The notes under the pieces: generated by a model | What the model saw: the letters and a program-made list of their open reading frames with translations, nothing else | Told to the model about the DNA's origin: nothing | Databases searched by the model: none | Part shown: one piece after another, positions 1,755 through 21,872 of the stretch | Numbering within the stretch: position 1 is the first letter of the stretch | Layout of the letters: every line of letters starts with the position of its first letter | IMG/VR virus record: IMGVR_UViG_3300022821_000073 | Coordinates: 1 to 32,484 of that record | Reading direction: 5' to 3' (one strand) | Length of the DNA stretch: 32,484 bases | From: a virus | Program-made: the position numbers and the translations under genes

Positions 1755-1761
1755 TACAATT

Positions 1762-1770
1762 AGTATATCA
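1762..1770 (-). promoter_or_regulatory. Extended -10 promoter, leaderless spacing
   Basis: Minus-strand TGATATACT followed by 7 nt and ATG. A TG dinucleotide one base upstream of a good -10 hexamer is the extended -10 form, which does not need a strong -35. With the usual 6-8 nt from -10 to +1, transcription would begin at the A of the start codon. Confidence 0.5.
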
Positions 1771-1782
1771 CGGTGCTACTGG

Positions 1783-2403
1783 CTATTTAGTCACTTTATC
1801 ATACACCTCCTTCCACTCCTGCCGGAAGGATTTAAGCTTGTCGGCTGCTTCATCAGTGTCTACCTCCTTGCGCGTAATGCGTGTCACCATTGCCCTTTTC
1901 TTTTTCATCTTCACCCTGGGGTCGTAGATTACAAAGTCCAGCCACTCTAGGTCCGGGTTTACTAGAAAGTAGTTCGTCACCTGGCCCATGTACTCAGCAG
2001 GAATACCTCCGTCAGCCATGTACTTCACAAAGGTCTTAGTGCCGGGGCACTTCACCTCTACCGCACCAACCCATTTCTTGCCCTTCTTAACTAATCTATC
2101 AGGGCTTAGCGCTAGGTAGTCGTACTCCTCAGACCGACAAAAGCCTACGACTGATGTCTTTATCTTAGTCTGCTTCTCATACACCTCAACTGCCTCGTCC
2201 TCATGGTCAGTCCCCCACTGCATTGCTTCATTCACCCATAACTTGTCTTGCAACCCACTAACCTGCTCGGCTACTAGCTCATATATAAGCGTCTTGCGCA
2301 CTGCTGGGCTGCCTATAGCTGACTTCAGGCGGGTCCCTGTGATCATCCCTAGGCGCATTGCCAACCACTCCTCGCTACCTTGTGTTGTTTCGATTATTTT
2401 CAT
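1783..2403 (-). CDS. Lambda-exonuclease/YqaJ-type recombination nuclease
   Basis: A 206-residue protein of the YqaJ viral recombinase family (PD-(D/E)XK nucleases), which degrade one strand of duplex ends to make 3' tails for annealing. Motifs are in order: the N-terminal SEEWLAMRLGMITGT, where the family contacts the DNA end; an acidic WGTDHEDEA near residues 63-71; SPDRL with Asp102; EVKCP with Glu116 and Lys118; and a later Gln141 in the position of the family's conserved Gln. Length is close to lambda Exo (226). A partner annealing protein is not obvious next door, though the ssDNA-binding protein at 4.6 kb could cooperate. It starts 5 nt after the Dam-type gene and is probably co-transcribed with it. 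Confidence 0.88.
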   Translation of the reverse strand: MKIIETTQGSEEWLAMRLGMITGTRLKSAIGSPAVRKTLIYELVAEQVSGLQDKLWVNEAMQWGTDHEDEAVEVYEKQTKIKTSVVGFCRSEEYDYLALSPDRLVKKGKKWVGAVEVKCPGTKTFVKYMADGGIPAEYMGQVTNYFLVNPDLEWLDFVIYDPRVKMKKKRAMVTRITRKEVDTDEAADKLKSFRQEWKEVYDKVTK

Positions 2404-2408
2404 ATATA

Positions 2409-2828
2409 TTACATTACTATTACCATACTTCCTGACATACCACAGTTGTTTGTGACATATACACCCTTGGTATTTGTGCCTTTAAACTTCACTCTGCCCC
2501 GAAGGAAGCGTATCTCTTTTGCATGAGGCACGATGTAGTCGTGGTAGATAGCTGTGTCTGTTGATGCGGGTATGAGCAAAACACAAGTCTTGCCTTTTTT
2601 GCTTTCCTCAATAGCTCGCTTAATAAAAGCTTCTTTAAGGTGGCGTGTGTAGGGTGGGTTTACAAAGTTGCTTTGCCCCCACTCAATTAGTAGCCCATCG
2701 TTTTCAGGAGTAATTACCTCACACAAGGGGCAGGGGTCAAAGTCAAAATTAAACTCTTTGTGCAGTGGGTCGTATATATACTCAGGAGTTTCCCACTGGT
2801 CCCCTGCGTTTGTGTTTCGGTTTTTCAT
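2409..2828 (-). CDS. Phage DNA N6-adenine methyltransferase (Dam type)
   Basis: A 139-residue protein with the hallmarks of the phage Dam family: WETP near the N-terminus (residues 12-15), DPCP (31-34), and the catalytic NPPY (57-60). The family transfers a methyl group from SAM to adenine N6 and often protects phage DNA from restriction. The length is short but typical for the compact phage version. Its ATG overlaps the TGA of the cytosine-methyltransferase remnant (ATGA), showing that the two methyltransferase genes were once directly coupled. Target sequence unknown. Confidence 0.87.
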   Translation of the reverse strand: MKNRNTNAGDQWETPEYIYDPLHKEFNFDFDPCPLCEVITPENDGLLIEWGQSNFVNPPYTRHLKEAFIKRAIEESKKGKTCVLLIPASTDTAIYHDYIVPHAKEIRFLRGRVKFKGTNTKGVYVTNNCGMSGSMVIVM

Positions 2829-2896
2829 ATAAGTTTTTCCATAATGTCCCTAATTACATTTACCGTCACTGCGTTGCCGAGTTTTTTACAATACAT
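2825..2896 (-). pseudogene. Orphan 3' end of a cytosine-5 methyltransferase gene
   Basis: A 23-codon frame whose product contains KKLGNAVTVNVIRDIMEKLI. This is motif X and the C-terminus of a DNA cytosine-5 methyltransferase, closely parallel to VLGNAVTTNVIKDIVCQLLK at the end of the intact gene just upstream. At DNA level the two copies are clearly diverged, so this is not a fresh duplication. The HNH gene separates it from the intact methyltransferase. Its TGA overlaps the Dam-type ATG. The best reading is a leftover of the original methyltransferase 3' end after HNH insertion. It could still be translated from its ATG inside the HNH tail. Confidence 0.8.
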
Positions 2897-3362
2897 ACTG
2901 TCCGTTCTTAAACTTTATAGTCCCATCTTTTATTAGTTGTCTTACAACTGAACTGAGTGATATATGTAGTTGTTGGTGGTGTGAATTATTTTTACAGAGA
3001 AACAAGTTGTCTATAGAGTAATTCATTCTGTCTGTATCGATGTGATGTACTGGTTCACTACGCTTTGGGGTTCTTCCTATATGTTTTTCCATTTCTAACA
3101 CATGCTTGAACACGTACCCTATAGCACTAGATCGTGGGTGTGTAGGTAAATGAGAAACAGGATAGCCTGTTTTAATAACTTCTCCGTTTCTTTTTCTATT
3201 ACGACTATTTGCACCTGATAGTGGCTTTGTTATACCTAAACGCTTTAAGTGCCGACATACTGTTGTTCTTGTACACCCATATTTCTCAGCTAATTCTCCG
3301 CTACTCATTGTCTGGTATTCTTTTTTAAGTTGTGTATCGTTTGTTATTTTAGAAGCTGACAT
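2886..3362 (-). CDS. HNH homing-type endonuclease
   Basis: A 158-residue protein with an N-terminal helix-turn-helix (SSGELAEKYGCTRTTVCRHL, residues 20-39) and a C-terminal HNH nuclease core. The core has His106-His107 in PVHHIDTDRMNY, Asn119 in IDNL, and His128-His129 in NNSHHQQLH. This form (HTH plus HNH) is common in free-standing phage homing endonucleases, which cut a recipient genome so that their own gene is copied in. Its first 19 nt overlap the end of the cytosine methyltransferase gene, and its last codons overlap the orphan methyltransferase tail. The start at 3362 is used; ATG at codon 19 is an alternative. The target is presumably the uninvaded methyltransferase gene. Confidence 0.85.
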   Translation of the reverse strand: MSASKITNDTQLKKEYQTMSSGELAEKYGCTRTTVCRHLKRLGITKPLSGANSRNRKRNGEVIKTGYPVSHLPTHPRSSAIGYVFKHVLEMEKHIGRTPKRSEPVHHIDTDRMNYSIDNLFLCKNNSHHQQLHISLSSVVRQLIKDGTIKFKNGQYVL

Positions 3363-4447
3363 ACAATATCTTTTATTACGTTAGTAGTTACAGCATTTCC
3401 TAAAACTTTATAACGCTGTGTATCTGATATTAACACCTCTTGACCTTGGTCGTCAACTCCATACTTGGTGAAATGGTCTGGAAATCCCTGGAGTCGTTCG
3501 CACTCGGTTGGGGTTAGTCTTCTGATAGCGTTCACTACAGGAGGCTCTTTGTAGCTTGTCGCTGTAATGGCTACACTATTCTCGTAGTCTTTCTTGTAAT
3601 TCATCATCTTTGGGTTTTGTATAAACGGCTGTCTATTTCCTCCCTGCATAGTGTTAAGGGTAGGGCTTAGTCCGTCTGTTCCGTACACTCTGTCGTTTGA
3701 GTGGGTTGGTTGGTTGAGCTGTACTATTTCTTGTGCATTGAGTTTACTTTCAGTGACATACGTTCCGTTTGCTTGCCCTCCGTAGTAACGGGTGGTAAGG
3801 GTGTTTGAATGTTGTCCCGATAACTGAGTAACCGCTTCTGAATCGTCTCCGAAAGGAAATACTTCGGGTCTACGTGTTCCTCGAGAATGTCCGATAATGA
3901 ACACTCTCTCTCTGTTCTGTGGGACTCCGTGATTTTTGCTGTTAATAATTTGCCATTGGACATCGTACCGAAGCTCATCAAGCGTTGCGATGATGGTACG
4001 GAATGTGTTCCCTTTGTCGTGAGATAACAACCCTTTAACGTTCTCAAACATAAAAAGGCGTGGTTGTTTTTCCCGAAGTATCCGTGCAAGCTCGAAGAAC
4101 ATTGTTCCGCGAGTGTCCTCAAATCCTCCTCTGTTTCCTGCGATGCTAAACGCTTGGCAAGGGAAGCCACCCACCAAGAGGTCAAAGTCTGGTAATGTTT
4201 TTTCATTGATTTCTGTGATGTCTCCATAGTTTTTGTGGTTAGGGAAGTGCTTTTGATAAATTGAGGTGGCGTACTTGTCAATTTCGGAGTAACCAACACA
4301 AGTAAACCTGTCCTGTGACTCCTGAGTGTCGGGCATAGTTTCTCGTAATACCTCACTCCCGTTCCGTATGTTGGGTCGATTATCATATGCCTGTTTTATT
4401 CCTAATTCAAATCCTCCTATTCCAGAGAATGTACTAAAGTATTTCAT
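3344..4447 (-). CDS. DNA (cytosine-5) methyltransferase
   Basis: A complete 367-residue C5 methyltransferase that would methylate cytosine in a specific site using SAM. Motif I FSGIGGFE (7-14), motif IV GGFPCQAFS with catalytic Cys97, motif VI ENV (135-137), motif VIII QNRERVFI (177-184), motif IX RRLTPTECERLQGFP (309-323) and motif X LGNAVT (349-354) are all present. The region from about 190 to 308 is the target-recognition domain and has the SPTLNTMQGGNRQP pattern seen in phage enzymes. No cognate restriction enzyme is nearby, so it is an orphan, probably anti-restriction. It heads a transcript: TAGTAT lies 6 nt before the ATG. Its tail appears to have arrived with, or been repaired around, the HNH gene. 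Confidence 0.92.
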   Translation of the reverse strand: MKYFSTFSGIGGFELGIKQAYDNRPNIRNGSEVLRETMPDTQESQDRFTCVGYSEIDKYATSIYQKHFPNHKNYGDITEINEKTLPDFDLLVGGFPCQAFSIAGNRGGFEDTRGTMFFELARILREKQPRLFMFENVKGLLSHDKGNTFRTIIATLDELRYDVQWQIINSKNHGVPQNRERVFIIGHSRGTRRPEVFPFGDDSEAVTQLSGQHSNTLTTRYYGGQANGTYVTESKLNAQEIVQLNQPTHSNDRVYGTDGLSPTLNTMQGGNRQPFIQNPKMMNYKKDYENSVAITATSYKEPPVVNAIRRLTPTECERLQGFPDHFTKYGVDDQGQEVLISDTQRYKVLGNAVTTNVIKDIVCQLLK

Positions 4448-4453
4448 CCCTAA

Positions 4454-4462
4454 ATACTACCA
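4454..4462 (-). promoter_or_regulatory. Extended -10 promoter of the methyltransferase operon
   Basis: Minus-strand TGGTAGTAT, then TTAGGG and the methyltransferase ATG. The -10 hexamer is 6 nt from the start codon, so the mRNA should begin at the ATG. The AGGG could also act as a very close Shine-Dalgarno only if transcription started further upstream. Confidence 0.5.
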
Positions 4463-4503
4463 CACACTATCCACACCCCCTCCCTCGCTATCCACAGGGG
4501 CTT

Positions 4504-4512
4504 TGCTATACT
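4504..4512 (+). promoter_or_regulatory. Extended -10 promoter of the ssDNA-binding protein gene
   Basis: Plus-strand TGCTATACT, divergent from the methyltransferase promoter about 42 nt away. It would give a leader of roughly 36 nt, AT-rich and without a Shine-Dalgarno. Weaker alternatives (TACAAT just before the ATG) are too close to the start codon to be the -10. Confidence 0.45.
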
Positions 4513-4554
4513 GTTTGGGTAGGCAGATAATAATCAATCTAAAATATACAATAT

Positions 4555-5040
4555 ATGACACCCGATTTTTCACAGTTTAAAGCACAAAGCCTTAGTCGAC
4601 CAATGGATGCAGCCTGGAGCAATGGCTTTGCAGTATTCGAGAAGAAAGGTGACAAGGTAGAAGGTATCCTACGAGATGTGTTCTTCAAAAAGGCAGAAGG
4701 CATGTTTAAGGAACAGCGTGGATTCACACTAGAACTTTCAGACGGGAAACTTAAGAACGTTTCAATAAAGCGTGAACCATACTTCGCAATCCGTGCTACC
4801 AACGACGTAAAGCTAGGAGACTTCCTATCTATTGAGCTAACAGAACTACGCCCATCGAAGAGCACTGGATTCAAGCCAGCTAAAATCTTTGCGTTTACAT
4901 CAGGTACTCTTGATGAGAACGCAGGCAACGCTACAGTAAAGGAACTAGAAGCTAAGGACATGGCTGCTGAGGGAGTAGCAGACACTTCCCAAGAAGAAAA
5001 CCGAGCTGACACACCAGACGCTGAAGCAGCACCTTTCTAA
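4555..5040 (+). CDS. Probable single-stranded DNA-binding protein
   Basis: A 161-residue protein. The first 115 residues look like a beta-rich OB-type domain (VEGILRDVFFKK, RGFTLELSDGKLKNVSIKR, GDFLSIELTELRPS). The tail is acidic and low-complexity (AADTS-, EEN- and DAE-rich), ending in AAPF. An acidic tail finishing with Pro-Phe is the partner-binding hallmark of bacterial and many phage SSBs, which coat ssDNA and recruit replication and repair proteins. It is the only convincing plus-strand gene in the left arm, bracketed by its own promoter and a 14-bp terminator shared with the converging dNMP kinase operon. The acidic tail and neighbours support the call; the family itself is inferred from pattern, not from a recognised signature. 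Confidence 0.6.
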   Translation: MTPDFSQFKAQSLSRPMDAAWSNGFAVFEKKGDKVEGILRDVFFKKAEGMFKEQRGFTLELSDGKLKNVSIKREPYFAIRATNDVKLGDFLSIELTELRPSKSTGFKPAKIFAFTSGTLDENAGNATVKELEAKDMAAEGVADTSQEENRADTPDAEAAPF

Positions 5041-5057
5041 CCAGCCCACTGCCTACA

Positions 5058-5090
5058 ATAAAAACCACATCGTTATGATGTGGTTTTTAT
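5058..5090. terminator. Bidirectional intrinsic terminator
   Basis: A perfect 14-bp inverted repeat: ATAAAAACCACATC, 5-nt loop, GATGTGGTTTTTAT. With a T-tract on either strand it can stop the plus-strand SSB-like transcript and the minus-strand replication operon. It lies 17 nt after the SSB-like stop and 6 nt before the dNMP kinase stop. Confidence 0.9.
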
Positions 5091-5096
5091 AATTGT

Positions 5097-5750
5097 CTAA
5101 GAATTTGAGTCAAAGTCTGAAACTTTTATCCCATCCACCCGTGCGTTTTGAATCACTCCACCATCTATCTTTTGCATAATAACATTTAGCTGAGCGTAGA
5201 AGGATGCGTGATCACCTTTCTCTGCGACAATCTCGTAGTCATACGCGATGCCTTCCATCTCTAATTCTGATGAGTGCGTACCGGAGTCCTCTACTCCCAC
5301 CTGCACAATCTTAATAATTACACCGCCATGGTCACGTATCGTCTGGGCTTCGTTGTGGAAGCGACAATCGTCTACGAGCACATCGCCTAGCGTCTTGCGT
5401 GTTGTCACCCATTCATTCACCCAGTAATTGACGTTTCCCGCACGTCGCACCTCGGTCCCATAGTTCTGCATAAGGGCACGCATGAGGGGTGGTTTGTCTA
5501 AGAATAATTGGTCTATCCATGATTGGTCTATCCATTTTTGCTGTGCGACTTTGTCTGAAAACATCCTGCTAGGATACTCTAGCTCTACCAATTTTTGCAA
5601 AAGGTCTGGAAAGTTTTGCTTTAGCTCTGCTACTAATGCGTCCTTAAAGTTGACCTTGGTAAACCCTTTGTAGTTTTCTAGGATGTGGGTACAGGCTGTT
5701 GTCTTGCCTGACTTTGCTTTGCCTATAAAGGCTATCGTTTTATTTTCCAT
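5097..5750 (-). CDS. Deoxynucleoside monophosphate kinase
   Basis: A 217-residue P-loop kinase that phosphorylates dNMPs to dNDPs for phage DNA synthesis, like T4 gp1 and related phage enzymes. Walker A is GKAKSGKT (10-17). LMQNYGTEVRR (93-103) is the typical substrate-site segment, and VLVDDCRFHNEA (124-135) matches the conserved DxRF-NEA motif. HSSE (159-162) is the lid-region signature. The frame is open 11 codons upstream to a GTG, but ATG at 5750 is preferred because it overlaps the end of the zinc-ribbon gene, as coupled genes here do. It is the last gene of the replication operon. Confidence 0.85.
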   Translation of the reverse strand: MENKTIAFIGKAKSGKTTACTHILENYKGFTKVNFKDALVAELKQNFPDLLQKLVELEYPSRMFSDKVAQQKWIDQSWIDQLFLDKPPLMRALMQNYGTEVRRAGNVNYWVNEWVTTRKTLGDVLVDDCRFHNEAQTIRDHGGVIIKIVQVGVEDSGTHSSELEMEGIAYDYEIVAEKGDHASFYAQLNVIMQKIDGGVIQNARVDGIKVSDFDSNS

Positions 5751-5896
5751 GCTCTGGTTGAACTTAAATGATAATTTTTGCACTCAGGACATTTGTATAT
5801 GTGGAACTTTTTGCCCTTATACCTGTTGTGCATAGCCCCCTGCATCTTGCGCGCATCGCGTTTGGTCTTGAGCTTAGCTTTGTGGGCGCATATCAT
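5732..5896 (-). CDS. Zinc-ribbon mini-protein, 54 aa
   Basis: A basic 54-residue protein with MICAHKAKLKTKRDA at the start and FHIYKCPECKNYHLSS near the end. The C-H pair of CAH and the CPEC motif with a following His can bind one zinc. This layout (C-x-H-K, a basic helix, then Y-x-CP-x-C-x-x-x-HL) recurs in many small phage proteins of unknown role. Its ATG overlaps the TGA of the 28-residue gene, and its end overlaps the kinase start, so all three are coupled. DNA or RNA binding is plausible. Confidence 0.65.
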   Translation of the reverse strand: MICAHKAKLKTKRDARKMQGAMHNRYKGKKFHIYKCPECKNYHLSSTRAWKIKR

Positions 5897-5979
5897 ATCT
5901 TAAAGTTAAACTCGTGTGTTCCATTATACACCTCGCAGTGCACTTTACGGGTGGCGCTATCCACAGTTTTAAATAACAT
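5893..5979 (-). CDS. Micro-protein, 28 aa
   Basis: A short frame, MLFKTVDSATRKVHCEVYNG followed by THEFNFKI. It starts inside the last codons of the RecU-like gene and its TGA forms an ATGA with the zinc-ribbon start. No motif is recognised. The alternating pattern suggests a small beta-hairpin. It may serve mainly as a translational coupler between its neighbours. Confidence 0.4.
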   Translation of the reverse strand: MLFKTVDSATRKVHCEVYNGTHEFNFKI

Positions 5980-6385
5980 ACTTTTTTCTTTTTTTGGGAG
6001 GAAACTCATATGACCCCCATTTATCCATGCAGTACCAATATGAAACAGAAGTCTGATAAGGAATTTCGTGTACTGGCAACATAAAAAACTTTCCATGTTT
6101 TAAAAACATTATCACAAGAAACGATGGGACTTCGCTCATAAATGAGGCATCGTATGGAGTTCCCCTGGGGTCCAGGTCTGTAAACGTATGGAATATGCCT
6201 CTTTTGTCGTTAGCTTTAGCTAAATTAACTTCCTGGTGTCCTTGTTTTTTTCTCCATGTGTTGAGATTATACGTACCTCCAGCAGTTACTTTGTACTCAA
6301 ACACAGCATTAGCCCAGAATTTATTTTCTGGCTTCATGTACCACGCAGCAAACTGCGCTCCAAAATCAGCTTCCTTTTTTGACAT
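5969..6385 (-). CDS. RecU/Holliday-junction-resolvase-like nuclease (putative)
   Basis: A 138-residue protein resembling the small PD-(D/E)XK resolvases found in phages. The features seen are VFEYKVTAGGTYNL (Glu30 and Lys32 as the possible E-x-K pair), GHQEVNLAKA (His50-Gln51, as in the HQ..L segment of RecU-like proteins), and TPYDASFMSEVPSFLVIMF (77-94, like the PFD-x-hydrophobic strand). Such enzymes cut branched recombination or replication intermediates. The position just after a UvsW-like helicase, with a 20-nt overlap, fits recombination-dependent processing. The match is by motif pattern only, so a different nuclease subfamily is possible. Confidence 0.5.
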   Translation of the reverse strand: MSKKEADFGAQFAAWYMKPENKFWANAVFEYKVTAGGTYNLNTWRKKQGHQEVNLAKANDKRGIFHTFTDLDPRGTPYDASFMSEVPSFLVIMFLKHGKFFMLPVHEIPYQTSVSYWYCMDKWGSYEFPPKKRKKYVI

Positions 6386-7556
6386 CTAAATTAAAGTATT
6401 CTTTTATTATACCCCTTTGGGTCTTTAACTGAAAACTTAACATGCTGTCTGACCATAAATACAAAAAACTTTCTTTTCCTTCAACGTACCTCATTATCCT
6501 GCCAATAGTTTGTCGCAGGGGGTTCTTGCCTTTTAAGGGGTGCATTATGAACGCTTTAGTAAGGGCTGTGTTATCGTACCCTCGGTTCAAGGTACTAGAA
6601 ACACCGAGAAGGTAGCCTCCTGTTTCCTTAAATCCTTTGAGGTGTTGTTCCCTGTCTGCTTTACTCATTTCTCCAGAGGACATATACACAGCAAATCCAC
6701 GCTTTTTGAAAGAAGCATAAAAAGCTTCTACATCAGCTACACGATCCCAAAGACATAGTGAGTGCCCCAAAGCATCAGTGTTCCTTAATATAAATTCAAT
6801 CTGCGCTCTTTTTCGGTCTATGTCGTCATCAAGAACTTTTCGAAACTCGTGCCAATTCTTATGGGGAAACACTTCGGGGTATGTCTTGTTGTACACAAAA
6901 GCGTACACCTTTTTTAGTGGAATTTTTTTGTCTGAAAAATGCTGCACGTGCTTTCCCCAAAATTTGGCCAACACGGGAGACTGCCCAGGATTACACTCGT
7001 CGTAAACTGTGTCAGTAGTACCAGTAAAACCATGCTTTCTTGTTGAAACAAAACTGCTGATAGCTTTCAGCATCTTATCAGACATTGCAAGGTCAGCTTC
7101 GTCTATAATAAGGTTATCAAAGCCAGCAAACAGTTTGTAGTTTAATCTAAAGGTTGTCATTGTAGTAACTACCACTTCGCCAGACTGATCATGTTTCCCA
7201 TTGCAATAAAAAGTAGGGGACACATCTGCAAATTTTTTAAATTCTTCTGAAAACTGCTTAGCCAAAACTAATGTATGACACACTACTAATGTCCTGCCTC
7301 CCCATGCTTGATGCAGAGCGATGCTCATAACTGTTTTACCTGCTCCAGTTAAAGCTTCTAGCAGACAAGTGGACCAGTCTTTCATTTCATTAAATACAAC
7401 TTCCTGGTCTGGGTACAGCCGTATCTGGGTTTTATTCTGCGCGGGTAAAAAAGCAGTCTGCAATGTGGGAATAGCAACCTCTGAAACAGTCCACCGAGTA
7501 GAGTGCCCCAGCTTGAGTCGCTTAACATACTCAGGGTTAGTAAGCCTAAGCCCCAT
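6366..7556 (-). CDS. Superfamily 2 DNA helicase (UvsW-like)
   Basis: A 396-residue helicase. Motif I is LTGAGKT (69-75), the Walker B box is IIDEAD (150-155), motif III is FTGTT (177-181), and the second RecA domain carries LGVSSTLNRGYD and motif VI QTIGRIMR (349-356). The Q-motif region LYPDQ (48-52) precedes motif I. The layout resembles phage T4 UvsW and other compact SF2 helicases that unwind branched DNA. An RBS-like GAGGAG lies about 13 nt before the ATG, inside a 25-codon upstream frame. It is flanked by the AAA+ ATPase and the RecU-like nuclease, which fits a replication or recombination role. Confidence 0.88.
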   Translation of the reverse strand: MGLRLTNPEYVKRLKLGHSTRWTVSEVAIPTLQTAFLPAQNKTQIRLYPDQEVVFNEMKDWSTCLLEALTGAGKTVMSIALHQAWGGRTLVVCHTLVLAKQFSEEFKKFADVSPTFYCNGKHDQSGEVVVTTMTTFRLNYKLFAGFDNLIIDEADLAMSDKMLKAISSFVSTRKHGFTGTTDTVYDECNPGQSPVLAKFWGKHVQHFSDKKIPLKKVYAFVYNKTYPEVFPHKNWHEFRKVLDDDIDRKRAQIEFILRNTDALGHSLCLWDRVADVEAFYASFKKRGFAVYMSSGEMSKADREQHLKGFKETGGYLLGVSSTLNRGYDNTALTKAFIMHPLKGKNPLRQTIGRIMRYVEGKESFLYLWSDSMLSFQLKTQRGIIKEYFNLDVKKGS

Positions 7557-7623
7557 GATAGATTCTTAGCTCCTCTTGCTGGGTGTCCCAAGCAAGTTCT
7601 TCTGTAGTTTTTTCTTCGTTCAT
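7546..7623 (-). CDS. Acidic micro-protein or coupling peptide, 25 aa
   Basis: A 25-codon frame, MNEEKTTEELAWDTQQEELR followed by IYHGA. Its ATG overlaps the TGA of the 87-residue gene (ATGA) and its end overlaps the helicase start by 11 nt. It thereby bridges two genes and carries the GAGGAG that may serve the helicase. Strongly acidic and helical. It may be a true peptide or only a translation link. Confidence 0.4.
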   Translation of the reverse strand: MNEEKTTEELAWDTQQEELRIYHGA

Positions 7624-7883
7624 TTAGATAATTCTTCTAACCTCATATTAACACAGTGCATACCCCAGCCGTCGTCTTTGTCCACAGCCACACTCATCAA
7701 CCAATTAAGTAATCCGACGTCATCACAGTCGCCTAGCACTTCGCCCTTATGTTTCACGGGAAACTCGATTAGTAGCTCCTTGGTAGTAAGGGGTGTACTG
7801 GTCCCATCTTCATAGTTGATGGTCGTTAGTTCCATGTCGATTTGTGCCCAGTTCTCGTTGGGCTTGTCTTTTAGGTAGAACAT
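7620..7883 (-). CDS. Hypothetical protein, 87 aa
   Basis: An acidic soluble protein (IDMELTTINYEDGTSTPLTT, then KELLIEFPVKHKGEVLG) with no recognised domain. It sits between the AAA+ ATPase and the SF2 helicase in the replication operon, starting 1 nt after the ATPase stop and ending in an ATGA overlap. Its constant packing suggests a replication accessory role, which is inference. Confidence 0.65.
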   Translation of the reverse strand: MFYLKDKPNENWAQIDMELTTINYEDGTSTPLTTKELLIEFPVKHKGEVLGDCDDVGLLNWLMSVAVDKDDGWGMHCVNMRLEELSK

Positions 7884-7884
7884 A

Positions 7885-9111: not shown

Positions 9112-10161
9112 CTAATTACTTAATGCTTTTAATGCCTCCATAAACGTCACACCGTGTACTGCTCGGTACAGTTCGATGCTATCAAAGGACTTACCACATC
9201 CTCCAAAGCAATACGCGCTGTTGGTCTTGGGGTAGTAATGGAGGCTTGGGGTCTTTTCATTGTGCAGTGGGCAGTGCGCTTTGTGCTTGGTAAACGCCAG
9301 TATCTCTGTGCACGGGAACTCTTTAGCTTTGCGCTTCACCTCATCCTGCTCCTCACTGGCTACATAGGTACTTTGGTACGTTGATACCGGGGCGTCGTGC
9401 TTCTCTAAGTACGCTTTATGAAAGGTAGTGGGTAACATCTGCCCCTTGCGTAAGAGCATGTCTTCTTTGACTGACTCTACGGATGGGTAGCTTTTCGCTG
9501 AGCGCATTAAACTATGGAAGTCACCACCTCTACTAATGTAATCAGTGATGTCTTTACAGTCAGGCAGGAGGGGAAGCAGGATGATCTTCGCGTTAGGCAG
9601 GTGCTCTAGGGTTTTTACCATCCCCTTGGCTCCCGCCTCGTCGTTGTCGAAGCAGAGGTAGACAGTCATGCCTGCTAATACAGGAGTAAACTCTTCTTGG
9701 AAGCTTTGTGCTCCACCGGTAGATGACACGGCAGGTATGTTCATCGAGTGGAGGACCAACGTGTCGAGTTCACCTTCTGTGATGACTATTGCTGGGATGT
9801 TGGGTTGCATATTAAGCCAACATAACTCCGTAGCTGTGGCTGTATTATACTCAGGTAATTTCTTTTCCATTTCTTCAACTACTCTCATAGTCTGCTCTAA
9901 ACTTTTGTGGTGGGGTAACTTATCAGCACCATATAGCGCGGTTCGCCCGCCTTTGTCGTAGATGTACTTAGCGCCTGTGCCCTCTGTGAAAGGGTTGCGT
10001 CGATACTTGTTAAAGGAAAATGTGCCGTCTGGTAGGTGCACAGGGATTTGTAATGCGCCTGGACCTAAGATAGGATGGTCGACTTCAGATAGATTAAAAG
10101 ACTCAATAGTTGAGTCCGTTATACCACGGGCGTTAAGCCACTGGGTAAGTCTTTCTTGCAT
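9112..10161 (-). CDS. DNA primase with C-terminal zinc finger
   Basis: A 349-residue primase-type protein with unusual domain order. Residues 1-85 resemble the N-terminal part of the DnaG polymerase core (WLNARGITDSTIESFNL, KYIYDKGGRTALYG). The Toprim domain follows, with Glu129 in ITEGELDTL and Asp172/Asp174 in CFDNDEAG, then KDITDYI (203-209). The zinc-binding CHC2-like element, which in DnaG is at the N-terminus, is here at the end: HCPLHNEKTPSLHYY (296-310), then CFGGC (318-322) and a VTFMEALKAL helix. The second metal pair is C-x3-C rather than the usual C-x2-C. ATG at 10161 is chosen because TATAAT lies 6 nt before it. An upstream in-frame start at 10191 would lie outside the predicted transcript. 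Confidence 0.85.
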   Translation of the reverse strand: MQERLTQWLNARGITDSTIESFNLSEVDHPILGPGALQIPVHLPDGTFSFNKYRRNPFTEGTGAKYIYDKGGRTALYGADKLPHHKSLEQTMRVVEEMEKKLPEYNTATATELCWLNMQPNIPAIVITEGELDTLVLHSMNIPAVSSTGGAQSFQEEFTPVLAGMTVYLCFDNDEAGAKGMVKTLEHLPNAKIILLPLLPDCKDITDYISRGGDFHSLMRSAKSYPSVESVKEDMLLRKGQMLPTTFHKAYLEKHDAPVSTYQSTYVASEEQDEVKRKAKEFPCTEILAFTKHKAHCPLHNEKTPSLHYYPKTNSAYCFGGCGKSFDSIELYRAVHGVTFMEALKALSN

Positions 10162-10167: not shown

Positions 10168-10176
10168 ATTATAGCA
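10168..10176 (-). promoter_or_regulatory. Extended -10 promoter of the replication operon
   Basis: Minus-strand TGCTATAAT, 6 nt, ATG. The consensus -10 with TG extension and the 6-nt spacing predict a leaderless primase mRNA. No -35 match is seen at the standard distance. Confidence 0.65.
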
Positions 10177-10186: not shown

Positions 10187-10207
10187 CCCAAACAGATTAT
10201 GTTTGGG
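10187..10207. terminator. Hairpin between operons (weak terminator)
   Basis: CCCAAAC, 7-nt loop, GTTTGGG. It lies just upstream of the replication-operon promoter and downstream of the zinc-finger gene, where a terminator for the incoming minus-strand transcript is expected. Only a short T-rich stretch follows on the minus strand, so termination would be partial. Confidence 0.45.
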
Positions 10208-14331: not shown

Positions 14332-14336
14332 GGTGT

Positions 14337-14683: not shown

Positions 14684-14692
14684 TGGTATAAT
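14684..14692 (+). promoter_or_regulatory. Extended -10 promoter of the packaging genes
   Basis: TGGTATAAT with 13 nt to the preferred terminase small-subunit ATG, leaving a leader of only about 6 nt. An earlier in-frame ATG overlaps the -10 and would not be transcribed, which decides the start. Confidence 0.65.
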
Positions 14693-15257: not shown

Positions 15258-15285
15258 AAAATACGGCTCATTAGAGCCGTATTTT
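15258..15285. terminator. Perfect 12-bp hairpin, bidirectional terminator
   Basis: AAAATACGGCTC-ATTA-GAGCCGTATTTT, extendable by one T-A pair. It lies 75 nt after the terminase small-subunit stop. The AT-rich outer stem supplies T-tracts on both strands. Confidence 0.8.
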
Positions 15286-15288
15286 AAT

Positions 15289-15320: not shown

Positions 15321-15349
15321 TTATATCGCTGTAATGCGTGCATATCGCA

Positions 15350-15362
15350 GGGGGGAGGGGGG
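15350..15362 (+). repeat. G6AG6 tract
   Basis: Two runs of six G separated by one A, the purest G-tract in the window, in an otherwise AT-rich gap. Four-run quadruplex formation would need the runs to split, so a quadruplex is not assured. A bent or brittle packaging mark is possible. Confidence 0.6.
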
Positions 15363-15496
15363 TGTTAAAAAAGTTTTGACGAGGTTAGATACTATATGGG
15401 GTCACAAAAATTTTTGCCAAATTTTCAAAAGTCGCTCTGTACAAATCCACTAAACTGTCCTGTAATAAAATAAGGGGATAACTCCCAAAGCGCTCA

Positions 15497-15524
15497 GCAC
15501 AAAGCACAAAGCACAAAGCACAAC
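15497..15524 (+). repeat. GCACAAA tandem repeat, 4 copies
   Basis: Three exact GCACAAA units followed by a fourth ending in C. The array is 22 bp upstream of the large-terminase promoter, a spacing that would suit an activator or terminase-binding iteron. Confidence 0.75.
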
Positions 15525-15545
15525 ACAAAGTAGCCCTCACCCCCA

Positions 15546-15554
15546 TGGTACAAT
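15546..15554 (+). promoter_or_regulatory. Extended -10 promoter, leaderless spacing, large terminase
   Basis: TGGTACAAT, 7 nt, ATG. Transcription should start at the large-terminase start codon; no Shine-Dalgarno is present. Confidence 0.55.
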
Positions 15555-15561
15555 TCATACA

Positions 15562-17142
15562 ATGCATATCACAAAAGAGCAACTCGCTTATGCCCAGAAC
15601 ACAATTCAAAACGGGACAGACGAAGAGCGCTTAGCCTTCTTCGCTTTTGACAGCAAAAATTCTAGAACAGTAATCCATTTTAAGTTTATTACTTGGGCGC
15701 ATACGTGCTACCCGCGATACTTCCAGTCCATTCCTGCCCCTTTTCACGACGACATTATCCGTCACATGATTGACGCATATTACGGAGACATTAAGTACAC
15801 GAACTTAGGTTTTCGAGGTTGTGCCAAGACTACCTGGACTAAGCTCTTTATAGCCTACGCTATTTTAAATGACATGGATCAGACGCGCCGGTACATGAAG
15901 GTGCTGACGAGAAACATTGGTAACGCTAAGCAGATGGTGACAGACATATATAACTTGATTGTAGAGGTCAAGGATTTTTACGGTGACATCTTTCAGAAGG
16001 ATGGTGACAAGAAGCGAGAAGAAACAATGGGAAGCTTTACCACTGTTGAGGGTGTGAAGCTCCTCAGTGGTACTGTGGGTATGACACAGCGTGGTCACTT
16101 GCAAGACGCCTATCGCCCAGACTTCCTCATCTTTGACGACGTGGAGGACCGTGAGTCTATCCAGTCTTTGGCTACTACCGAGGCAACTATCTGGAGGATT
16201 GACGAGGCTATTTCAGGATTGGCTGCTGAGGGTTCGTATATGTGTAACGGTAACTATATTAGTGAGGAGGGAGTAATTCAGTGGTTCCTAAACAAGCCTG
16301 ATATGGTGGTAGATAAGATTACGATACTCGACGACAACGGTGACCCTGCGTGGCCCACTCGGTATGATAAGGAGAAGGTAGAGTCTATTAAGAATGACTC
16401 GGATGATTTCTATGGGGAATATATGTGTGACCCAACGCGAGCTGATGCTAGCTTCTTTGACAGAGCGAAAGTCGACCAGGACATCGCGACAGCGCAACAA
16501 CCCCACAAGGAGGCAGCTGGTGTGAAGTACTGGGGAGAATACCAACCGCATCATATATATGGTTGTGGAGCAGATACTTCTGAAGGTATAGGGCGCGACG
16601 CTAACACGTTTTGCTTGTATGACTTTGGAACCTTTCCAGATGATGTGGGTGTGTTGGTAGCTAGTTACTACAACAACCGTATAGCCCCAGACTTGTTTGG
16701 TCACGAGCTTGTTAGGATTGGTGGGGAGTTTGGTAACTGTCTAATGGCGCCTGAGTCTAATAACACCGGGCACGCCACTATTGCTGCTATGCGTGGCTAC
16801 CCTAATATGTTTACCCAACGTACTACTGGTAATAGGTCTATTAAGGTAACGGAGAAGTTTGGGTGGAATACTAATAGGAAGACGAAGCCCTTGATGTTCT
16901 TTGACTTTCGCAAGGATTATAACGATGGGAAGATTAAGATATATGATGTAAACCTGCTTAAGGAGATGCGCTCGTATACCTCTATGGACCTGCAAGACAC
17001 GAAAATTGGTATTGCTACTAGGCACTTCGACCTTCTTATTGCAGCCATTATTGGCTGGCAGATGAAAAAGTACGCTTCTACAGACGAAATAGAGGATGAT
17101 TTTGTAGAAGAGGAACCATTGTATGGCGATATTGGGATGTAA
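15562..17142 (+). CDS. terL: Terminase large subunit
   Basis: A 526-residue packaging motor and nuclease. The ATPase domain has a Walker-A-like GFRGCAKTT (83-91) and Walker B FLIFDDVED (188-196), with SGTVGMTQRG (169-178) before it. The nuclease domain carries Asp338 in GADTSEG, Glu398 in MAPESNN, and Asp490 in RHFDLLIA, the acidic trio that binds metal. Length is normal for phage large terminases. The protein cuts concatemers and drives DNA into the procapsid through the portal, whose gene is next. The C-terminal DDFVEEEPLYGDIGM is acidic. Confidence 0.92.
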   Translation: MHITKEQLAYAQNTIQNGTDEERLAFFAFDSKNSRTVIHFKFITWAHTCYPRYFQSIPAPFHDDIIRHMIDAYYGDIKYTNLGFRGCAKTTWTKLFIAYAILNDMDQTRRYMKVLTRNIGNAKQMVTDIYNLIVEVKDFYGDIFQKDGDKKREETMGSFTTVEGVKLLSGTVGMTQRGHLQDAYRPDFLIFDDVEDRESIQSLATTEATIWRIDEAISGLAAEGSYMCNGNYISEEGVIQWFLNKPDMVVDKITILDDNGDPAWPTRYDKEKVESIKNDSDDFYGEYMCDPTRADASFFDRAKVDQDIATAQQPHKEAAGVKYWGEYQPHHIYGCGADTSEGIGRDANTFCLYDFGTFPDDVGVLVASYYNNRIAPDLFGHELVRIGGEFGNCLMAPESNNTGHATIAAMRGYPNMFTQRTTGNRSIKVTEKFGWNTNRKTKPLMFFDFRKDYNDGKIKIYDVNLLKEMRSYTSMDLQDTKIGIATRHFDLLIAAIIGWQMKKYASTDEIEDDFVEEEPLYGDIGM

Positions 17143-17145
17143 CAG

Positions 17146-17154
17146 TGGTATAAT
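17146..17154 (+). promoter_or_regulatory. Extended -10 promoter upstream of portal
   Basis: TGGTATAAT begins 3 nt after the large-terminase stop. It gives a roughly 40-nt AT-rich leader to the portal gene, containing AGTGCGGGG. Confidence 0.65.
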
Positions 17155-17202
17155 TAAGACAAATTAACACATTTAATATAAATAGTGCGGGGCAAACACT
17201 AT

Positions 17203-19128
17203 ATGGCAGTTATTAAAAAGGAAACACGAGACAAAATTGTTGCATTGGCCTTAACCAACATAGATTTTGCTCGTACGTACAAGAAAGGAAAGATATCTAC
17301 GTGGCAGTTAAACGAAGACTTGTATTATGGAGTCAAAAAGAAAAGCGACGAGTCCCGTGCGAACGTCGACCTGGGGCAAATGCAGGAACACGTACACACG
17401 TTACTAAGTAAGATTGATAGTCCCTTGACCTTTAAGTTTGTGAAGCGTAAGGGCTCACAGCTTAAGCGGGTAGAAAGGCTTAACGCTTTAAAGACGTTTG
17501 ATGGGGACCGTAACTTCTGGGACATGAAAGATATTGCTGCGAAGAAGCAGTGTATTATTTATGGACGAGCGATTATGTCCTACCAAGCATCTAATAGTGA
17601 GGGGTATCAACCGCACTTGGAAAACGTCGACGTGTATGACTTCCTATGGGACCCATCCGCTGGTGGGCTGGACTTAGAAAAAGGTCGCTTTGGAGGACGG
17701 TATGGGGTTGTAAAGGATAGGTCAGAATTGAAGAGCAATAAGAGCTACATCCAGACTGAGGTAAAGGCTTTGCTACAAGGTCCAGGCAACGCTGATGAAT
17801 CTTCTGAGGAGGATTTAGATAAGCAAAGTCGACGGTACGCAGTGGAAAGTGATACTGCTAAGATTGAAAATGCAGACCCTGACAAGTACAAGTTTTGGGA
17901 GTGGTATCAGACGTTTGAAGGCGAACGGTACTACTTGCTTATGGATAACAATGGGCGAGCTATCCAAGTACAGAAGCTAGTAGAACGTCATCCAAGTGGG
18001 ATGTGGCCGTTCTGGACTTTTGCAGCGTACCCAGATTTAACTGAGCTATGGACACCTAGTCCCTGCGATTATGTACGTGAGATAATCATGGCGCAAGCGG
18101 TATCCATTAACCAAATGATGGACAACGCTGAGCGCGTGAATAAGCCACAGCGAGCTATTGATACTGGTGCTATTAAGAACAAGGCACAGCTTAAGTACCG
18201 GAAGGATGGGTACATTGATATGGCTCCTGGTGCAAACGCAACAACTGCCATTAAGATTATGGAGACACCAAGTATCACTACTCCTATTAAGGTGTTTGAA
18301 ACGCTTGAGACTATTAAGGCAGCAGCTAGTGGAGTTACTGCTGGAGCTAAGGGTGTAGAAGACACTACTGGGCGAGCTACTATATATGAAGGGAACCAAG
18401 CGAACGTCGCTGACCGCTTTGCGCTCTTCAACAAGTCATACAGCTTTGGCTACAAGCGCTTTGCGAACTTGTACGAGGCAGGAGTAGATGAGAACCTAAC
18501 GAAGAAGATGGCGGTAGATATTATTGGTCCTGAAGGAATTAGGATTGAGGATATTAGCCGACGAGATATTTTCCGTAAGGGAGATACCTTTGCAGTAATG
18601 ACTGAGCAAGCTAACGCAGAGATGCAGATGTCAGAGCAGAAGAAGCGTACGCAAGGAGCATACTACTCAGCCCTACTTGGACGACCTGAGTTGGCTAACC
18701 AGAAAGTAGTTGTTGCTAAGCTTGGTCTGGTGGCGGGACTTGATGAAGCAGACATCCGGGAGCTACAGGACTTAGAAGAATATGGCACAGCTAACATTAT
18801 GGCAGAGGCTGAAAGGGACATTGAAGACATTTTAGACGGTAAGTTTATACAGCCTAATCGGATGGCTAATACGGCTTACAAACAGCGTTTTGTAAACTAC
18901 ATGCAAGACAATGAGGAGGATATGAACCAGGAGCAGGCAGGACGCATGCTACAATACATTAGATCACTAGACCAGGTAGTGGTGGCTAATGCACAGCGTG
19001 CAGCACAAGCACAAGCGGCTAAAGAACAGACGGCACAATTACAAGCGGGGGGAGCGGGGAAAAGACCACAGATGAGACAACCTGGACCTAGCCAACCTCT
19101 TCAAGATACAATACAACAAAATGTCTAA
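17203..19128 (+). CDS. Portal protein
   Basis: A 641-residue portal (dodecameric DNA gate at one capsid vertex). The pattern is typical: an early QMQEHVHTLLSKIDSPLTFK segment, then CIIYGRAIMSYQASN and VDVYDFLWDPSAGG, and a long central region (EIIMAQAVSINQMMDNAERV, TTGRATIYEGN) with helical stem and crown parts. The tail is rich in Gln and Ala (QRAAQAQAAKEQTAQLQAGG). Its length is in the range of podoviral portals. ATG at 17203 is used; a GTG six codons upstream is possible but lies in the conserved leader motif. Its final codons overlap the next gene. Confidence 0.88.
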   Translation: MAVIKKETRDKIVALALTNIDFARTYKKGKISTWQLNEDLYYGVKKKSDESRANVDLGQMQEHVHTLLSKIDSPLTFKFVKRKGSQLKRVERLNALKTFDGDRNFWDMKDIAAKKQCIIYGRAIMSYQASNSEGYQPHLENVDVYDFLWDPSAGGLDLEKGRFGGRYGVVKDRSELKSNKSYIQTEVKALLQGPGNADESSEEDLDKQSRRYAVESDTAKIENADPDKYKFWEWYQTFEGERYYLLMDNNGRAIQVQKLVERHPSGMWPFWTFAAYPDLTELWTPSPCDYVREIIMAQAVSINQMMDNAERVNKPQRAIDTGAIKNKAQLKYRKDGYIDMAPGANATTAIKIMETPSITTPIKVFETLETIKAAASGVTAGAKGVEDTTGRATIYEGNQANVADRFALFNKSYSFGYKRFANLYEAGVDENLTKKMAVDIIGPEGIRIEDISRRDIFRKGDTFAVMTEQANAEMQMSEQKKRTQGAYYSALLGRPELANQKVVVAKLGLVAGLDEADIRELQDLEEYGTANIMAEAERDIEDILDGKFIQPNRMANTAYKQRFVNYMQDNEEDMNQEQAGRMLQYIRSLDQVVVANAQRAAQAQAAKEQTAQLQAGGAGKRPQMRQPGPSQPLQDTIQQNV

Positions 19129-19531
19129 ACTACTTAAAGCAGACCTTTCTATTAAGGAAGAGAACAAAGAAGACTTTAAAGAAACAGTGATTGCTCGAAA
19201 GAACCTGACTAACGAATTTACTATTTCGAGTATCGAAAAGCACCTAGCAGGTCTTAAAAAAGTACAGATAGAAGGTGAGAGTAAGCGAAACTTAGCCCAG
19301 TCATACGTTGACAATGTTCTACGAAACAATCCATTCATTTCTGAAATGTCTAAGGAGGACCAACACGCAGTATGGATGTACTTTGATAACCTGACTACGG
19401 TTAATGAGATTCAACCGCACCTAGACGATTTGTACGAAGACCAAAAGATTCATGGCGAATACCTCGACATTATCTATGACGCTTTTGGCTTCCAAGACAC
19501 AGTAGTAATTGATACTACTGATGCGAAGTAA
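19121..19531 (+). CDS. Hypothetical head-region protein, 136 aa
   Basis: A charged helical protein (MSKLLKADLSIKEENKEDFK, then SSIEKHLAGLKKVQIEGESK), acidic towards the end. It overlaps the portal gene by 8 nt in a shifted frame and so is translated with it. The position between portal and scaffold suggests a head-assembly accessory. No family is recognised. Confidence 0.6.
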   Translation: MSKLLKADLSIKEENKEDFKETVIARKNLTNEFTISSIEKHLAGLKKVQIEGESKRNLAQSYVDNVLRNNPFISEMSKEDQHAVWMYFDNLTTVNEIQPHLDDLYEDQKIHGEYLDIIYDAFGFQDTVVIDTTDAK

Positions 19532-19793
19532 GGAAGTGCCAAAGGAGTTAGCTGACCAAAAGGATGAGCTACACTCCATCAAAGCACTAGGAGACACTGA
19601 GGGAGGAAAAGCCTTGGTGGCTTCGTTGTTGGCGGATGTGGTTACTGCTGTGCATCAGCTTAAGATTGGGGGAGATAACACAGCGTGTGTTGCCACAATC
19701 AAATCAAAGCTGGCACTGGTAGAAACTATTATGGGAGCGAAGGCAGCCGAAGAAAATGTTGACACTCTGATTGCAGAGGCACTAAGCGAATAG
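19521..19793 (+). CDS. Hypothetical protein, 90 aa
   Basis: A small helical protein beginning MRSKEVPKELADQKDELHSI and rich in Ala, Leu and Lys. The ATG at 19521 overlaps the preceding stop by 11 nt; an in-frame TTG 4 codons earlier is less likely. It ends before a hairpin and the scaffold promoter. Role unknown, probably a head-assembly accessory. Confidence 0.6.
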   Translation: MRSKEVPKELADQKDELHSIKALGDTEGGKALVASLLADVVTAVHQLKIGGDNTACVATIKSKLALVETIMGAKAAEENVDTLIAEALSE

Positions 19794-19799
19794 CGCTTT

Positions 19800-19853
19800 G
19801 TGTGACTCTACTTACTTACCTTTTCCCCCGTACGGGTAGGTAGAGTCCCACAC
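19800..19853 (+). terminator. Long imperfect hairpin
   Basis: GTGTGACTCTAC pairs with GTAGAGT(CC)CACAC around an inner CCCGTACGGG. It separates the portal transcript from the scaffold promoter. No T-tract follows, so termination is uncertain. Confidence 0.5.
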
Positions 19854-19871
19854 GGTACTATTGAGGTCTCG

Positions 19872-19880
19872 TGGTATAAT
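19872..19880 (+). promoter_or_regulatory. Extended -10 promoter of the scaffold/capsid unit
   Basis: TGGTATAAT with about 57 nt of leader to the scaffold ATG, the longest leader of the set. The leader contains an AGGA...TCCT hairpin and the gene has a usable AGGA Shine-Dalgarno. Confidence 0.65.
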
Positions 19881-19943
19881 AGACGTACGGTTAGGAAGCG
19901 GTAACACTCCTATTGGACTGAACAATTAAAACACAGGAATTTT

Positions 19944-20570
19944 ATGTTAGATGAACAAACTACTCCAGCTTCGGAGGTAAATGAGTCAGAGGAAACTGTA
20001 AATGACGAGCAAGCAGAAACAACTATTGGAGAATCAGTAGGAGACGAAACACCAGTATCAGACAGCATTCCTAAGAAACGCTTCGATGAAGTGAATGAAA
20101 AAAGGAAGGTAGCAGAAGCGAGAATCGCTGAGCTAGAAGCTGCTACTGGTGAAGACCCTGAAAAACCTGATTCAAAAGAAACTGATTCTGACCTTGCAGC
20201 TAGACTAGCAAAACTTGAAGGGAAGGAAAAGGCAGAGAAACTTGAAGCTACTATGGAGAGCAATTTTGCAAAAGCTCTCGAAGAAGCACCAGAGTTTAAA
20301 GACAAAGTTAATATGGAAGTTCTAAAGCGTGAAGCTCAGAACCCTGCTAACGCAAACAAAACCTATTCACAACTCCTTGAAGAAGTGTATGGCAACACTA
20401 TCAGTGGTACGCGCACCGCTGAAACTACCACACCTCGTGGTGGAGCCGAAAACCAAACATTAGACCTTGCACGAGCCGGAAGTGATAATGCGTACTTAGA
20501 AGAGGTGTTGAAAGACCCAGCTTTAAAGAAGCAGTACAACGACGGACTTGCGGAAAGGGTAATGCTATAG
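19944..20570 (+). CDS. Capsid scaffolding protein (probable)
   Basis: A 208-residue acidic, charge-rich protein just before the capsid gene. The first 50 residues are disordered and acidic, followed by a long coiled-coil (KKRFDEVNEKRKVAEARIAE, then DLAARLAKLEGKEKAEKLEA) and a short basic, hydrophobic end (KKQYNDGLAERVML). This composition and the position immediately upstream of the major capsid gene are the standard signs of a scaffold, which guides procapsid assembly and is then expelled. Sequence identity to known scaffolds is not expected. Confidence 0.75.
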   Translation: MLDEQTTPASEVNESEETVNDEQAETTIGESVGDETPVSDSIPKKRFDEVNEKRKVAEARIAELEAATGEDPEKPDSKETDSDLAARLAKLEGKEKAEKLEATMESNFAKALEEAPEFKDKVNMEVLKREAQNPANANKTYSQLLEEVYGNTISGTRTAETTTPRGGAENQTLDLARAGSDNAYLEEVLKDPALKKQYNDGLAERVML

Positions 20571-20578
20571 GAGTGCGG

Positions 20579-20596
20579 GGGTTACAAAAATAACCC
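20579..20596 (+). promoter_or_regulatory. Capsid leader hairpin
   Basis: GGGTTA-CAAAAA-TAACCC, 9 nt before the capsid ATG, beginning inside the shared AGTGCGGGG motif. It could protect the highly expressed mRNA 5' end or set translation. Confidence 0.4.
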
Positions 20597-20605
20597 AAAC
20601 TTACA

Positions 20606-21808
20606 ATGTTAACTGACTACATGGCAGCGTTTGATAACTCTTACCAAGAGATTTATCAGAAGACGCTGGTTTCAAAATCTGTGATGAACACACGTTTTGA
20701 AGCAAAATTAAAATTTGGAGAATCAGTAGAACGAGTATCATACAACATTGGCGCTGTGCGCGTACGAGACGTTGTACGAGGTGCTGCATCAACTATTGAC
20801 GCAATCACAGATACTACTCAACTACTTGAAATCAACATTGAGAAAGAAGCAGTGTTCTACATCTCAGACGGAGAATCAACACAGGCTGGACCTCTAAACC
20901 CAGGTACTGAAATCGGAGCTAAAATCGCACACAAAGTCGCACAAGACCTTGATGCACGATGTTTCGCAGAAGTTACAAACGCTGCAAACACATTCGATGA
21001 AGGAGACCTTACGACTGGAGTTTCAAATGGAACACCAATCACACTTTCTGCTACAACAGTTCCGCAAATGACATCACGTATGTCTGCAAAACTAACGTAC
21101 AAAGAAAACATCCAAACTGCTACAAACATGGTGTTTGCAGTAGACTCATACTCAGCAGCAATGATCGAGCAGTACCTTATGGGCAAGGACATCGACATCG
21201 CTGGTTCAGTATTCAAGAACGGGTACGCAGGTGTTATCCGAAACGCAGCAATGATCGTTTCAGAAAACCTATTGAGTTCAGCAGTAATGACATTCTCAGG
21301 AGTGAACGTTGATACTAAGACTATTGTAATCAACGGTGTTACAGCAACTTCACAGGCAACTGTAAACGCAGCTGGAGGTTACGACGTTAAGGGAACAGCA
21401 GATGCAGCAGGAGATTCTCTTGTAGCACTACTTATGAACTCTGACGGTAACGCAGCGGGCACAGGAACAGCATCGACTTACTTCGAGTTCACCGCAGCTG
21501 ACCGAGAAACCCTAGATGACGCTAACCTTACAGCAGTAAATGATTCAGGTGTAGTTACAATCACAGGTGCTGGACGTCTAGTTATCTCTGAAGACGAAAC
21601 TAACGGTGCTGTTACAGCTAACACTGTACACTGTTACTTCGGAAAACGAGGAGCAATCGACCTAGTGGTACAAGACCTATCACCAGTTGACATGCGAAAG
21701 ACAGATGACCGACGAGGTACTAACGTATTCTCTTCATACCTAGCAGGAATCAAGACTTTCACCGATGGTGGAAAGCAGTTCCTCAACGTAAAGATCGCAG
21801 CTGTATAA
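20606..21808 (+). CDS. Major capsid protein
   Basis: A 400-residue HK97-fold type coat protein. The N-terminal FDNSYQEIYQKTLVSKSVMN, the E-loop-like segment (EAKLKFGESVERVSYNIGAV), the spine helix around LNPGTEIGAKIAHKVAQDLD and the C-terminal FSSYLAGIKTFTDGGKQFLN follow the usual order. About residues 226-340 form a separate beta-rich stretch (VTATSQATVNAAGGYDVKGT, TASTYFEFTAADR) that reads like an inserted decoration domain rather than the A-domain alone. No in-frame cleavage site is evident. The leader carries a hairpin and no Shine-Dalgarno. Confidence 0.88.
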   Translation: MLTDYMAAFDNSYQEIYQKTLVSKSVMNTRFEAKLKFGESVERVSYNIGAVRVRDVVRGAASTIDAITDTTQLLEINIEKEAVFYISDGESTQAGPLNPGTEIGAKIAHKVAQDLDARCFAEVTNAANTFDEGDLTTGVSNGTPITLSATTVPQMTSRMSAKLTYKENIQTATNMVFAVDSYSAAMIEQYLMGKDIDIAGSVFKNGYAGVIRNAAMIVSENLLSSAVMTFSGVNVDTKTIVINGVTATSQATVNAAGGYDVKGTADAAGDSLVALLMNSDGNAAGTGTASTYFEFTAADRETLDDANLTAVNDSGVVTITGAGRLVISEDETNGAVTANTVHCYFGKRGAIDLVVQDLSPVDMRKTDDRRGTNVFSSYLAGIKTFTDGGKQFLNVKIAAV

Positions 21809-21827
21809 GCATCGACTTTCTACTCTG

Positions 21828-21844
21828 TCCTGAAAAATTCAGGA
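21828..21844 (+). terminator. Small hairpin after the capsid gene
   Basis: TCCTGAA-AAA-TTCAGGA, 20 nt after the capsid stop. Without a T-tract it is more likely an mRNA-stabilising or partial terminator element. Confidence 0.5.
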
Positions 21845-21857
21845 TGGGGATAGCAAG

Positions 21858-21866
21858 TGGTATAAT
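21858..21866 (+). promoter_or_regulatory. Extended -10 promoter, leaderless spacing, adaptor gene
   Basis: TGGTATAAT, then ATAGGT and ATG: 6 nt from -10 to start codon. The AGG would be a Shine-Dalgarno only if transcription began further upstream. Confidence 0.65.
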
Positions 21867-21872
21867 ATAGGT

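Follow-up and report, generated by a model that had tools for sequence, protein, structure and literature searches.

Gene organization of the phage record

The window analyzed here, 32,484 bases long, is an entire virus record from IMG/VR. Its genes form a leftward block on the minus strand, which encodes a YqaJ exonuclease, Dam and C5 methyltransferases, a helicase, and a primase-like protein, and a rightward, presumably late block on the plus strand, which encodes the terminases, the portal, a presumed scaffold, the capsid, the adaptor, and tail genes. The labels "capsid" and "adaptor" are presumptive, as they derive from gene order and are unconfirmed by family searches. Dozens of relatives of the portal and capsid were found in IMG/VR, and none in a set of 50,697 named phage records. 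A perfect inverted repeat, read from the sequence between the small and large terminase genes, is a probable terminator (Table 1). The primase-like protein inverts the domain order usual in DnaG: its Toprim domain (126-209) comes first, and a zinc ribbon of the DnaG type (292-348) lies at the C terminus. The start of this gene was set to the ATG at 10161 rather than to the TTG at 10191 of the longest open reading frame, a choice supported by the orthologue in L008.

Extended −10 elements at start codons

At 5 of the 37 curated starts, an extended −10 element of the form TGnTAnnnT ends 6 or 7 nt before the ATG; this gap counts the nucleotides that separate the ATG from the final T of the −10. 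When the 60 nt upstream of each start were dinucleotide-shuffled 2000 times, 0.10 such matches were expected, and 0 of the 2000 shuffles reached five, the maximum being three. The original prediction had placed such elements before these five genes and had proposed a comparison with shuffled sequence; all five were confirmed (gaps 7, 6, 6, 7, and 6, in the order of Table 1), and the comparison bears the claim out. The looser pattern TAnnnT occurs at a gap of 6 to 7 at seven of the 37 starts versus 2.2 expected (p about 0.005). Over the entire window, TGnTAnnnT shows no excess (97 versus 96.9 expected), and the signal is therefore positional. A scan for sigma-70 promoters that include a −35 element likewise gave no excess (15 versus 18.5). 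The signature is absent at the other 32 of the 37 genes, most of which are therefore leadered or operon-internal.

Table 1. Promoter elements, associated genes, and stem-loops in the window
Feature	Positions	Strand	Relation to start codon	Gene or context
TGATATACT	1762..1770	-	gap 7 to ATG 1754	38-aa gene (1638-1754 -)
TGGTAGTAT	4454..4462	-	gap 6 to ATG 4447	C5 cytosine methyltransferase (3344-4447 -, PF00145)
TGCTATAAT	10168..10176	-	gap 6 to ATG 10161	primase-like protein (9112-10161 -)
TGGTACAAT	15546..15554	+	gap 7 to ATG 15562	large terminase (15562-17142 +)
TGGTATAAT	21858..21866	+	gap 6 to ATG 21873	presumed adaptor (21873-22493 +)
TGGTATAAT	14684..14692	+	gap 13 to ATG 14706	small terminase; predicted leader about 7 nt
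TGGTATAAT	24382..24390	+	gap 10 to ATG 24401	49-aa Cys-rich (zinc) protein; predicted leader about 4 nt
TGGTATAAT	17146..17154	+	48 nt before ATG 17203	portal; leadered promoter, predicted leader about 42 nt
TGGTATAAT	19872..19880	+	63 nt before ATG 19944	gene preceding presumed major capsid protein; leadered promoter
Inverted repeat AAAATACGGCTC-ATTA-GAGCCGTATTTT	15258..15285	+		between small and large terminase; probable terminator
Hairpin ATAGTG-CGGGGCAAA-CACTAT	17182..17202	+	abuts ATG 17203	portal
Stem GGGTTA-CAAAAA-TAACCC	20579..20596	+	9 nt before ATG 20606	presumed major capsid protein
Stem-loop, then GGGGATAG	21828-21844	+		between capsid gene and adaptor promoter

Some of the five elements could be chance matches, leaving a class that is real but smaller. 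The weakest members are those of the 38-aa gene and the C5 methyltransferase: TGATATACT and TGGTAGTAT each deviate from TATAAT, neither gene has an orthologue among the fetched family loci, and the comparative test covered only the large terminase, the adaptor, and the primase. However, because only 0.10 chance matches are expected over 37 genes, one is unlikely and two are very unlikely, and we regard this explanation as improbable. A later start for the C5 methyltransferase is also unlikely, because MKYFSTFSGIGG places the first motif of the PF00145 family at the very start of the protein.

Perfect copies of TGGTATAAT occur five times in the window versus 0.30 expected, all on the plus strand. 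All five promoters belong to the rightward block of presumably late genes, and the leftward genes use variants. For the small terminase and the zinc protein, the original prediction had given leaders of 3 to 6 nt; the lengths obtained here are close to that range. Among small terminase orthologues, the gap is also 13 in L008 and is 6 in L020.

Shine-Dalgarno signals are at background

Shine-Dalgarno (SD)-like 4-mers were found at 4 of the 37 starts in the window, compared with 3.6 by chance, so that sites originally described as rare are indeed no more frequent than background. None of the five candidate leaderless starts has an SD-like 4-mer at positions −18 to −4. Counts are at background in the near clade of relatives defined below as well (19/188 versus 19). 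At the starts of far-clade contigs, such 4-mers are rarer than in a control window (47/638 versus 90), which suggests avoidance of SD sequences in the wider phage family.

Conservation of the promoter-to-start distance

Relatives were collected as 77 dereplicated family contigs, of which 20 form a near clade (≥60% portal identity, the window counted in), 52 are far, and 5 lack a portal. The distance between TGnTATAAT and ATG was examined without gene calls in a near set of 24 contigs, namely, the near clade and four of the five portal-less contigs. ATG lies at a gap of exactly 6 at 16 of the 76 TGnTATAAT sites, compared with 1, 2, and 2 sites at gaps of 5, 7, and 8, respectively, and with an average of 0.58 per gap over the range of 15 to 40; the scan of relatives that had been proposed along with the shuffling thus recovers the predicted spacing. 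GTG or TTG at gaps of 6 to 7 was found at none of the 76 sites. The far clade has a weaker gap-6 peak (9/80 versus 1.3). Across 30 aligned sites, only TGnTATAAT is conserved, and no −35 element was found.

The same spacing was found gene by gene in the near clade, again with the window counted in. The element precedes the primase at gap 6 in 4/4 genes (L008, L020, L023, and the window), the large terminase at gaps of 6 to 8 in 10/13 orthologues (a count that omits the incomplete L016 and L021 and includes L022), and the adaptor at gaps of 6 to 7 in 8/11. The adaptor orthologues of L035, L043, and L020 have no clear TG −10 at that spacing, and 0/30 far-clade adaptors carry the element. The six spacer bases vary freely from orthologue to orthologue. 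In L041, L015, L017, L032, and L023, the large terminase begins at a different point of the conserved protein, and the −10 is shifted together with the start codon. These relocations are the strongest evidence that the distance between the −10 and the AUG is under selection.

Short leaders might also arise if a compact genome squeezed promoters against starts by chance, with no selection for leaderless initiation; phage genomes are dense, and the small terminase and zinc protein promoters, with their leaders of about 7 and 4 nt, fit this picture. Squeezing, however, predicts a broad spread of gaps rather than a peak at exactly 6, and it is contradicted by the −10 elements that travel with relocated starts. 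Because the peak is so sharp, mere crowding is effectively excluded, and we consider it very improbable. Slightly less probable still is that TGGTATAAT is an RNA-level translation signal within a longer transcript and not a promoter. The fixed distance to the ATG in several genes and the lack of SD signals would fit such a role, but the same motif lies 48 to 63 nt upstream at the portal and the gene at 19944, so that the spacing is not fixed; the motif also agrees with the sigma-70 extended −10 at every letter, and the candidate host genomes described below have the same element and spacing.

Predicted leaderless transcripts

A strong promoter element sits six bases before several key starts, and the messages therefore probably begin at the start codon. 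We consider it very likely that at least five genes (the 38-aa gene, C5 methyltransferase, primase, large terminase, and adaptor) have leaderless mRNAs made from extended −10 promoters and that this layout is inherited in close relatives. In the proposed mechanism, a sigma-70-type RNA polymerase would transcribe the five genes from extended −10 promoters (TGnTATAAT, no −35). With the usual sigma-70 geometry, the transcript would start 7 nt after the −10, which at a gap of 6 is the A of the ATG, and the resulting mRNA would have no leader or one of no more than 1 nt. Ribosomes that accept a 5′-terminal AUG could then initiate directly on such an mRNA. Both the transcription start and initiation at the 5′ AUG are steps that we infer from the sequence. 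The exact 6-nt peak, the conservation, the movement of the −10 with relocated starts, and the use of ATG only lend strong support to the leaderless reading of the original prediction.

That prediction had also described the genes as operon heading, which fits four of the five. The C5 methyltransferase is divergent from the gene at 4555, a gap of some 200 nt lies ahead of the primase, the large terminase comes after the terminator-like repeat, and the adaptor comes after the hairpin at 21828-21844; each looks like the head of a transcription unit. The fit is not clear for the 38-aa gene, 28 nt downstream of the co-directional exonuclease gene.

Leaderless initiation is an already known mode. 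Zheng et al. (2011, PMC3160421) take as the mark of leaderless bacterial genes a TANNNT signal located some 12 bp before the start, and genes of this type have been shown experimentally in Deinococcus (PMC12340547). The phage shares the −10 hexamer and the distance with that class, a gap of 6 placing the first T 12 bp before the ATG, and has the TATAAT form, as in mid-GC genomes. In the phage, the −10 lies about 12 bp upstream more often than by chance, SD sequences are absent at the five starts, and in the near set AUG is preferred, as in leaderless genes of the TANNNT type. The phage differs in its TG-extended −10 and in belonging to an uncultured tailed-phage family.

According to PMC3160421, phage lambda provided the first case of leaderless initiation. 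There, too, a phage gene has its AUG at the mRNA 5′ end, an end that is predicted here. The lambda case of the cI repressor concerns one gene in an SD-using host, whereas here structural, packaging, and replication genes have the layout in common. Mycobacteria have high-GC genomes and also use GTG at leaderless starts, in contrast to the ATG found exclusively after TGnTATAAT here. As is predicted for the phage, many of their genes start at the transcript 5′ end (PMC3898074, PMC4633059). The present case adds that the layout is a conserved habit of an uncultured, SD-less phage family and that a matching signature is present in Patescibacteria. The latter are not among the groups named in the available text of PMC3160421 and PMC12340547, and a search of a limited literature collection found no report of a leaderless signature in Patescibacteria. 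Translation start in genomes without SD signals is poorly understood, and the phage family provides a compact, testable case; it also directs attention to Patescibacteria, where the signature is common. Gene callers that rely on SD sequences may misplace starts in such phages.

Hairpins in the leaders of structural genes

The portal of the window is preceded by a hairpin that abuts its ATG. In many members of this very divergent family, the loop of the portal-leader hairpin retains GGG or GGGG, and the stems vary yet pair (AATAAC/GTTATT, TTGAGT/ACTCAA, GTGATT/AATCAC, TTGGAT/ATCCAA, and AAATACG/CGTATTT). Because a MAFFT alignment of the portal leaders left the stems unaligned, pairing was assessed against swaps in which 5′ halves were exchanged between phages. 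Stems of at least 5 Watson-Crick pairs were present in 14/26 GGG-bearing portal leaders versus 1.4 in swaps (maximum 6 in 1000). Hairpins with GGGG loops that end 0 to 12 nt before an ATG were found in 12/71 cases in the family, compared with 1/71 for CCCC loops. In five near-clade phages (L016, L029, L043, L055, and L066), the portal has a predicted leader of 2 to 4 nt and no such hairpin.

In the capsid-gene leaders of many relatives, a GGG(G)TTA..TAACCC-type stem lies 3 to 10 nt before the presumed start codon, as in the window. Tentatively, the SD-less family might have two 5′ architectures: leaderless AUGs, and leaders of 20 to 45 nt that end in a covarying GGGG-loop hairpin at the AUG (in the portal, possibly in the capsid). 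The hairpin would replace the SD sequence or serve as an operator for a phage RNA-binding protein. The stem-loop at 21828-21844, which has counterparts with variable stems in L029, L036, and L039, is a possible 3′-end or processing element.

Candidate hosts

A genome scan with the portal profile found portal relatives in only five metagenome-assembled genome (MAG) contigs, mostly short, with conflicting taxonomy (Gammaproteobacteria, Bacteroidetes, Parcubacteria, Methylobacter, and Termititenax). The contig from the Parcubacteria MAG (L068, 7.8 kb) is a far-clade relative with about 50% portal identity; nothing from the near clade was detected when 380 Patescibacteria genomes were searched with the portal profile.

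The pattern TGNTATAATN6ATG had 268 matches in 59 Patescibacteria genomes, mostly of 0.5 to 1.2 Mb. In the same genomes, the reversed pattern had 25 matches, and a version with a 9-nt gap had 94. TGNTATAATN6ATG had 71 matches in 41 genomes of Bacteroidota, the phylum of the Bacteroidetes MAG, and 31 in 40 genomes of Pseudomonadota, the phylum of the Methylobacter MAG, in both cases in genomes three to four times larger. These totals are sums over per-genome tables; beyond the three phyla, the survey covered only the Termititenax MAG G005, which also has the signature (19 versus 1). The sampled Patescibacteria DNA has a sharp peak at gaps of 6 to 7. In G046, ATG lies at gap 6 at 13/50 sites versus 1.04 per gap, and SD sequences are used too (131/309 versus 33). 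In G037, about a fifth of the open reading frames contribute to an excess of TAnnnT at gaps of 6 to 7, and SD signals are near background (18/170 versus 14). An altered anti-SD as the cause of the missing SD signal was ruled out in this SD-poor genome, in which the 16S rRNA ends with an intact GGATCACCTCCTTT.

Because the same promoter-to-start signature is widespread in Patescibacteria and much less so in the sampled Bacteroidota and Pseudomonadota, Patescibacteria are the best candidate hosts, an assignment to which we give somewhat less than even confidence. We infer a host whose own genes are often leaderless. The original suggestion of a host that readily initiates on leaderless mRNAs is plausible, given that these candidates have the same signature. 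The leaderless signature is absent from the Gammaproteobacteria bin G001 yet present in its contig L066, so that the binning of L066 is doubtful.

Temperate phages of other phyla probably also belong to the wider family. A clear chromosomal prophage was present in just one of the five MAG contigs, that of Bacteroidetes (110 kb, far-clade, with 49% portal identity). In this distant relative (L067; G002:C33, about 66000-110174, from a Bacteroidetes-titled MAG), the phage block starts near a tRNA-Asp gene.
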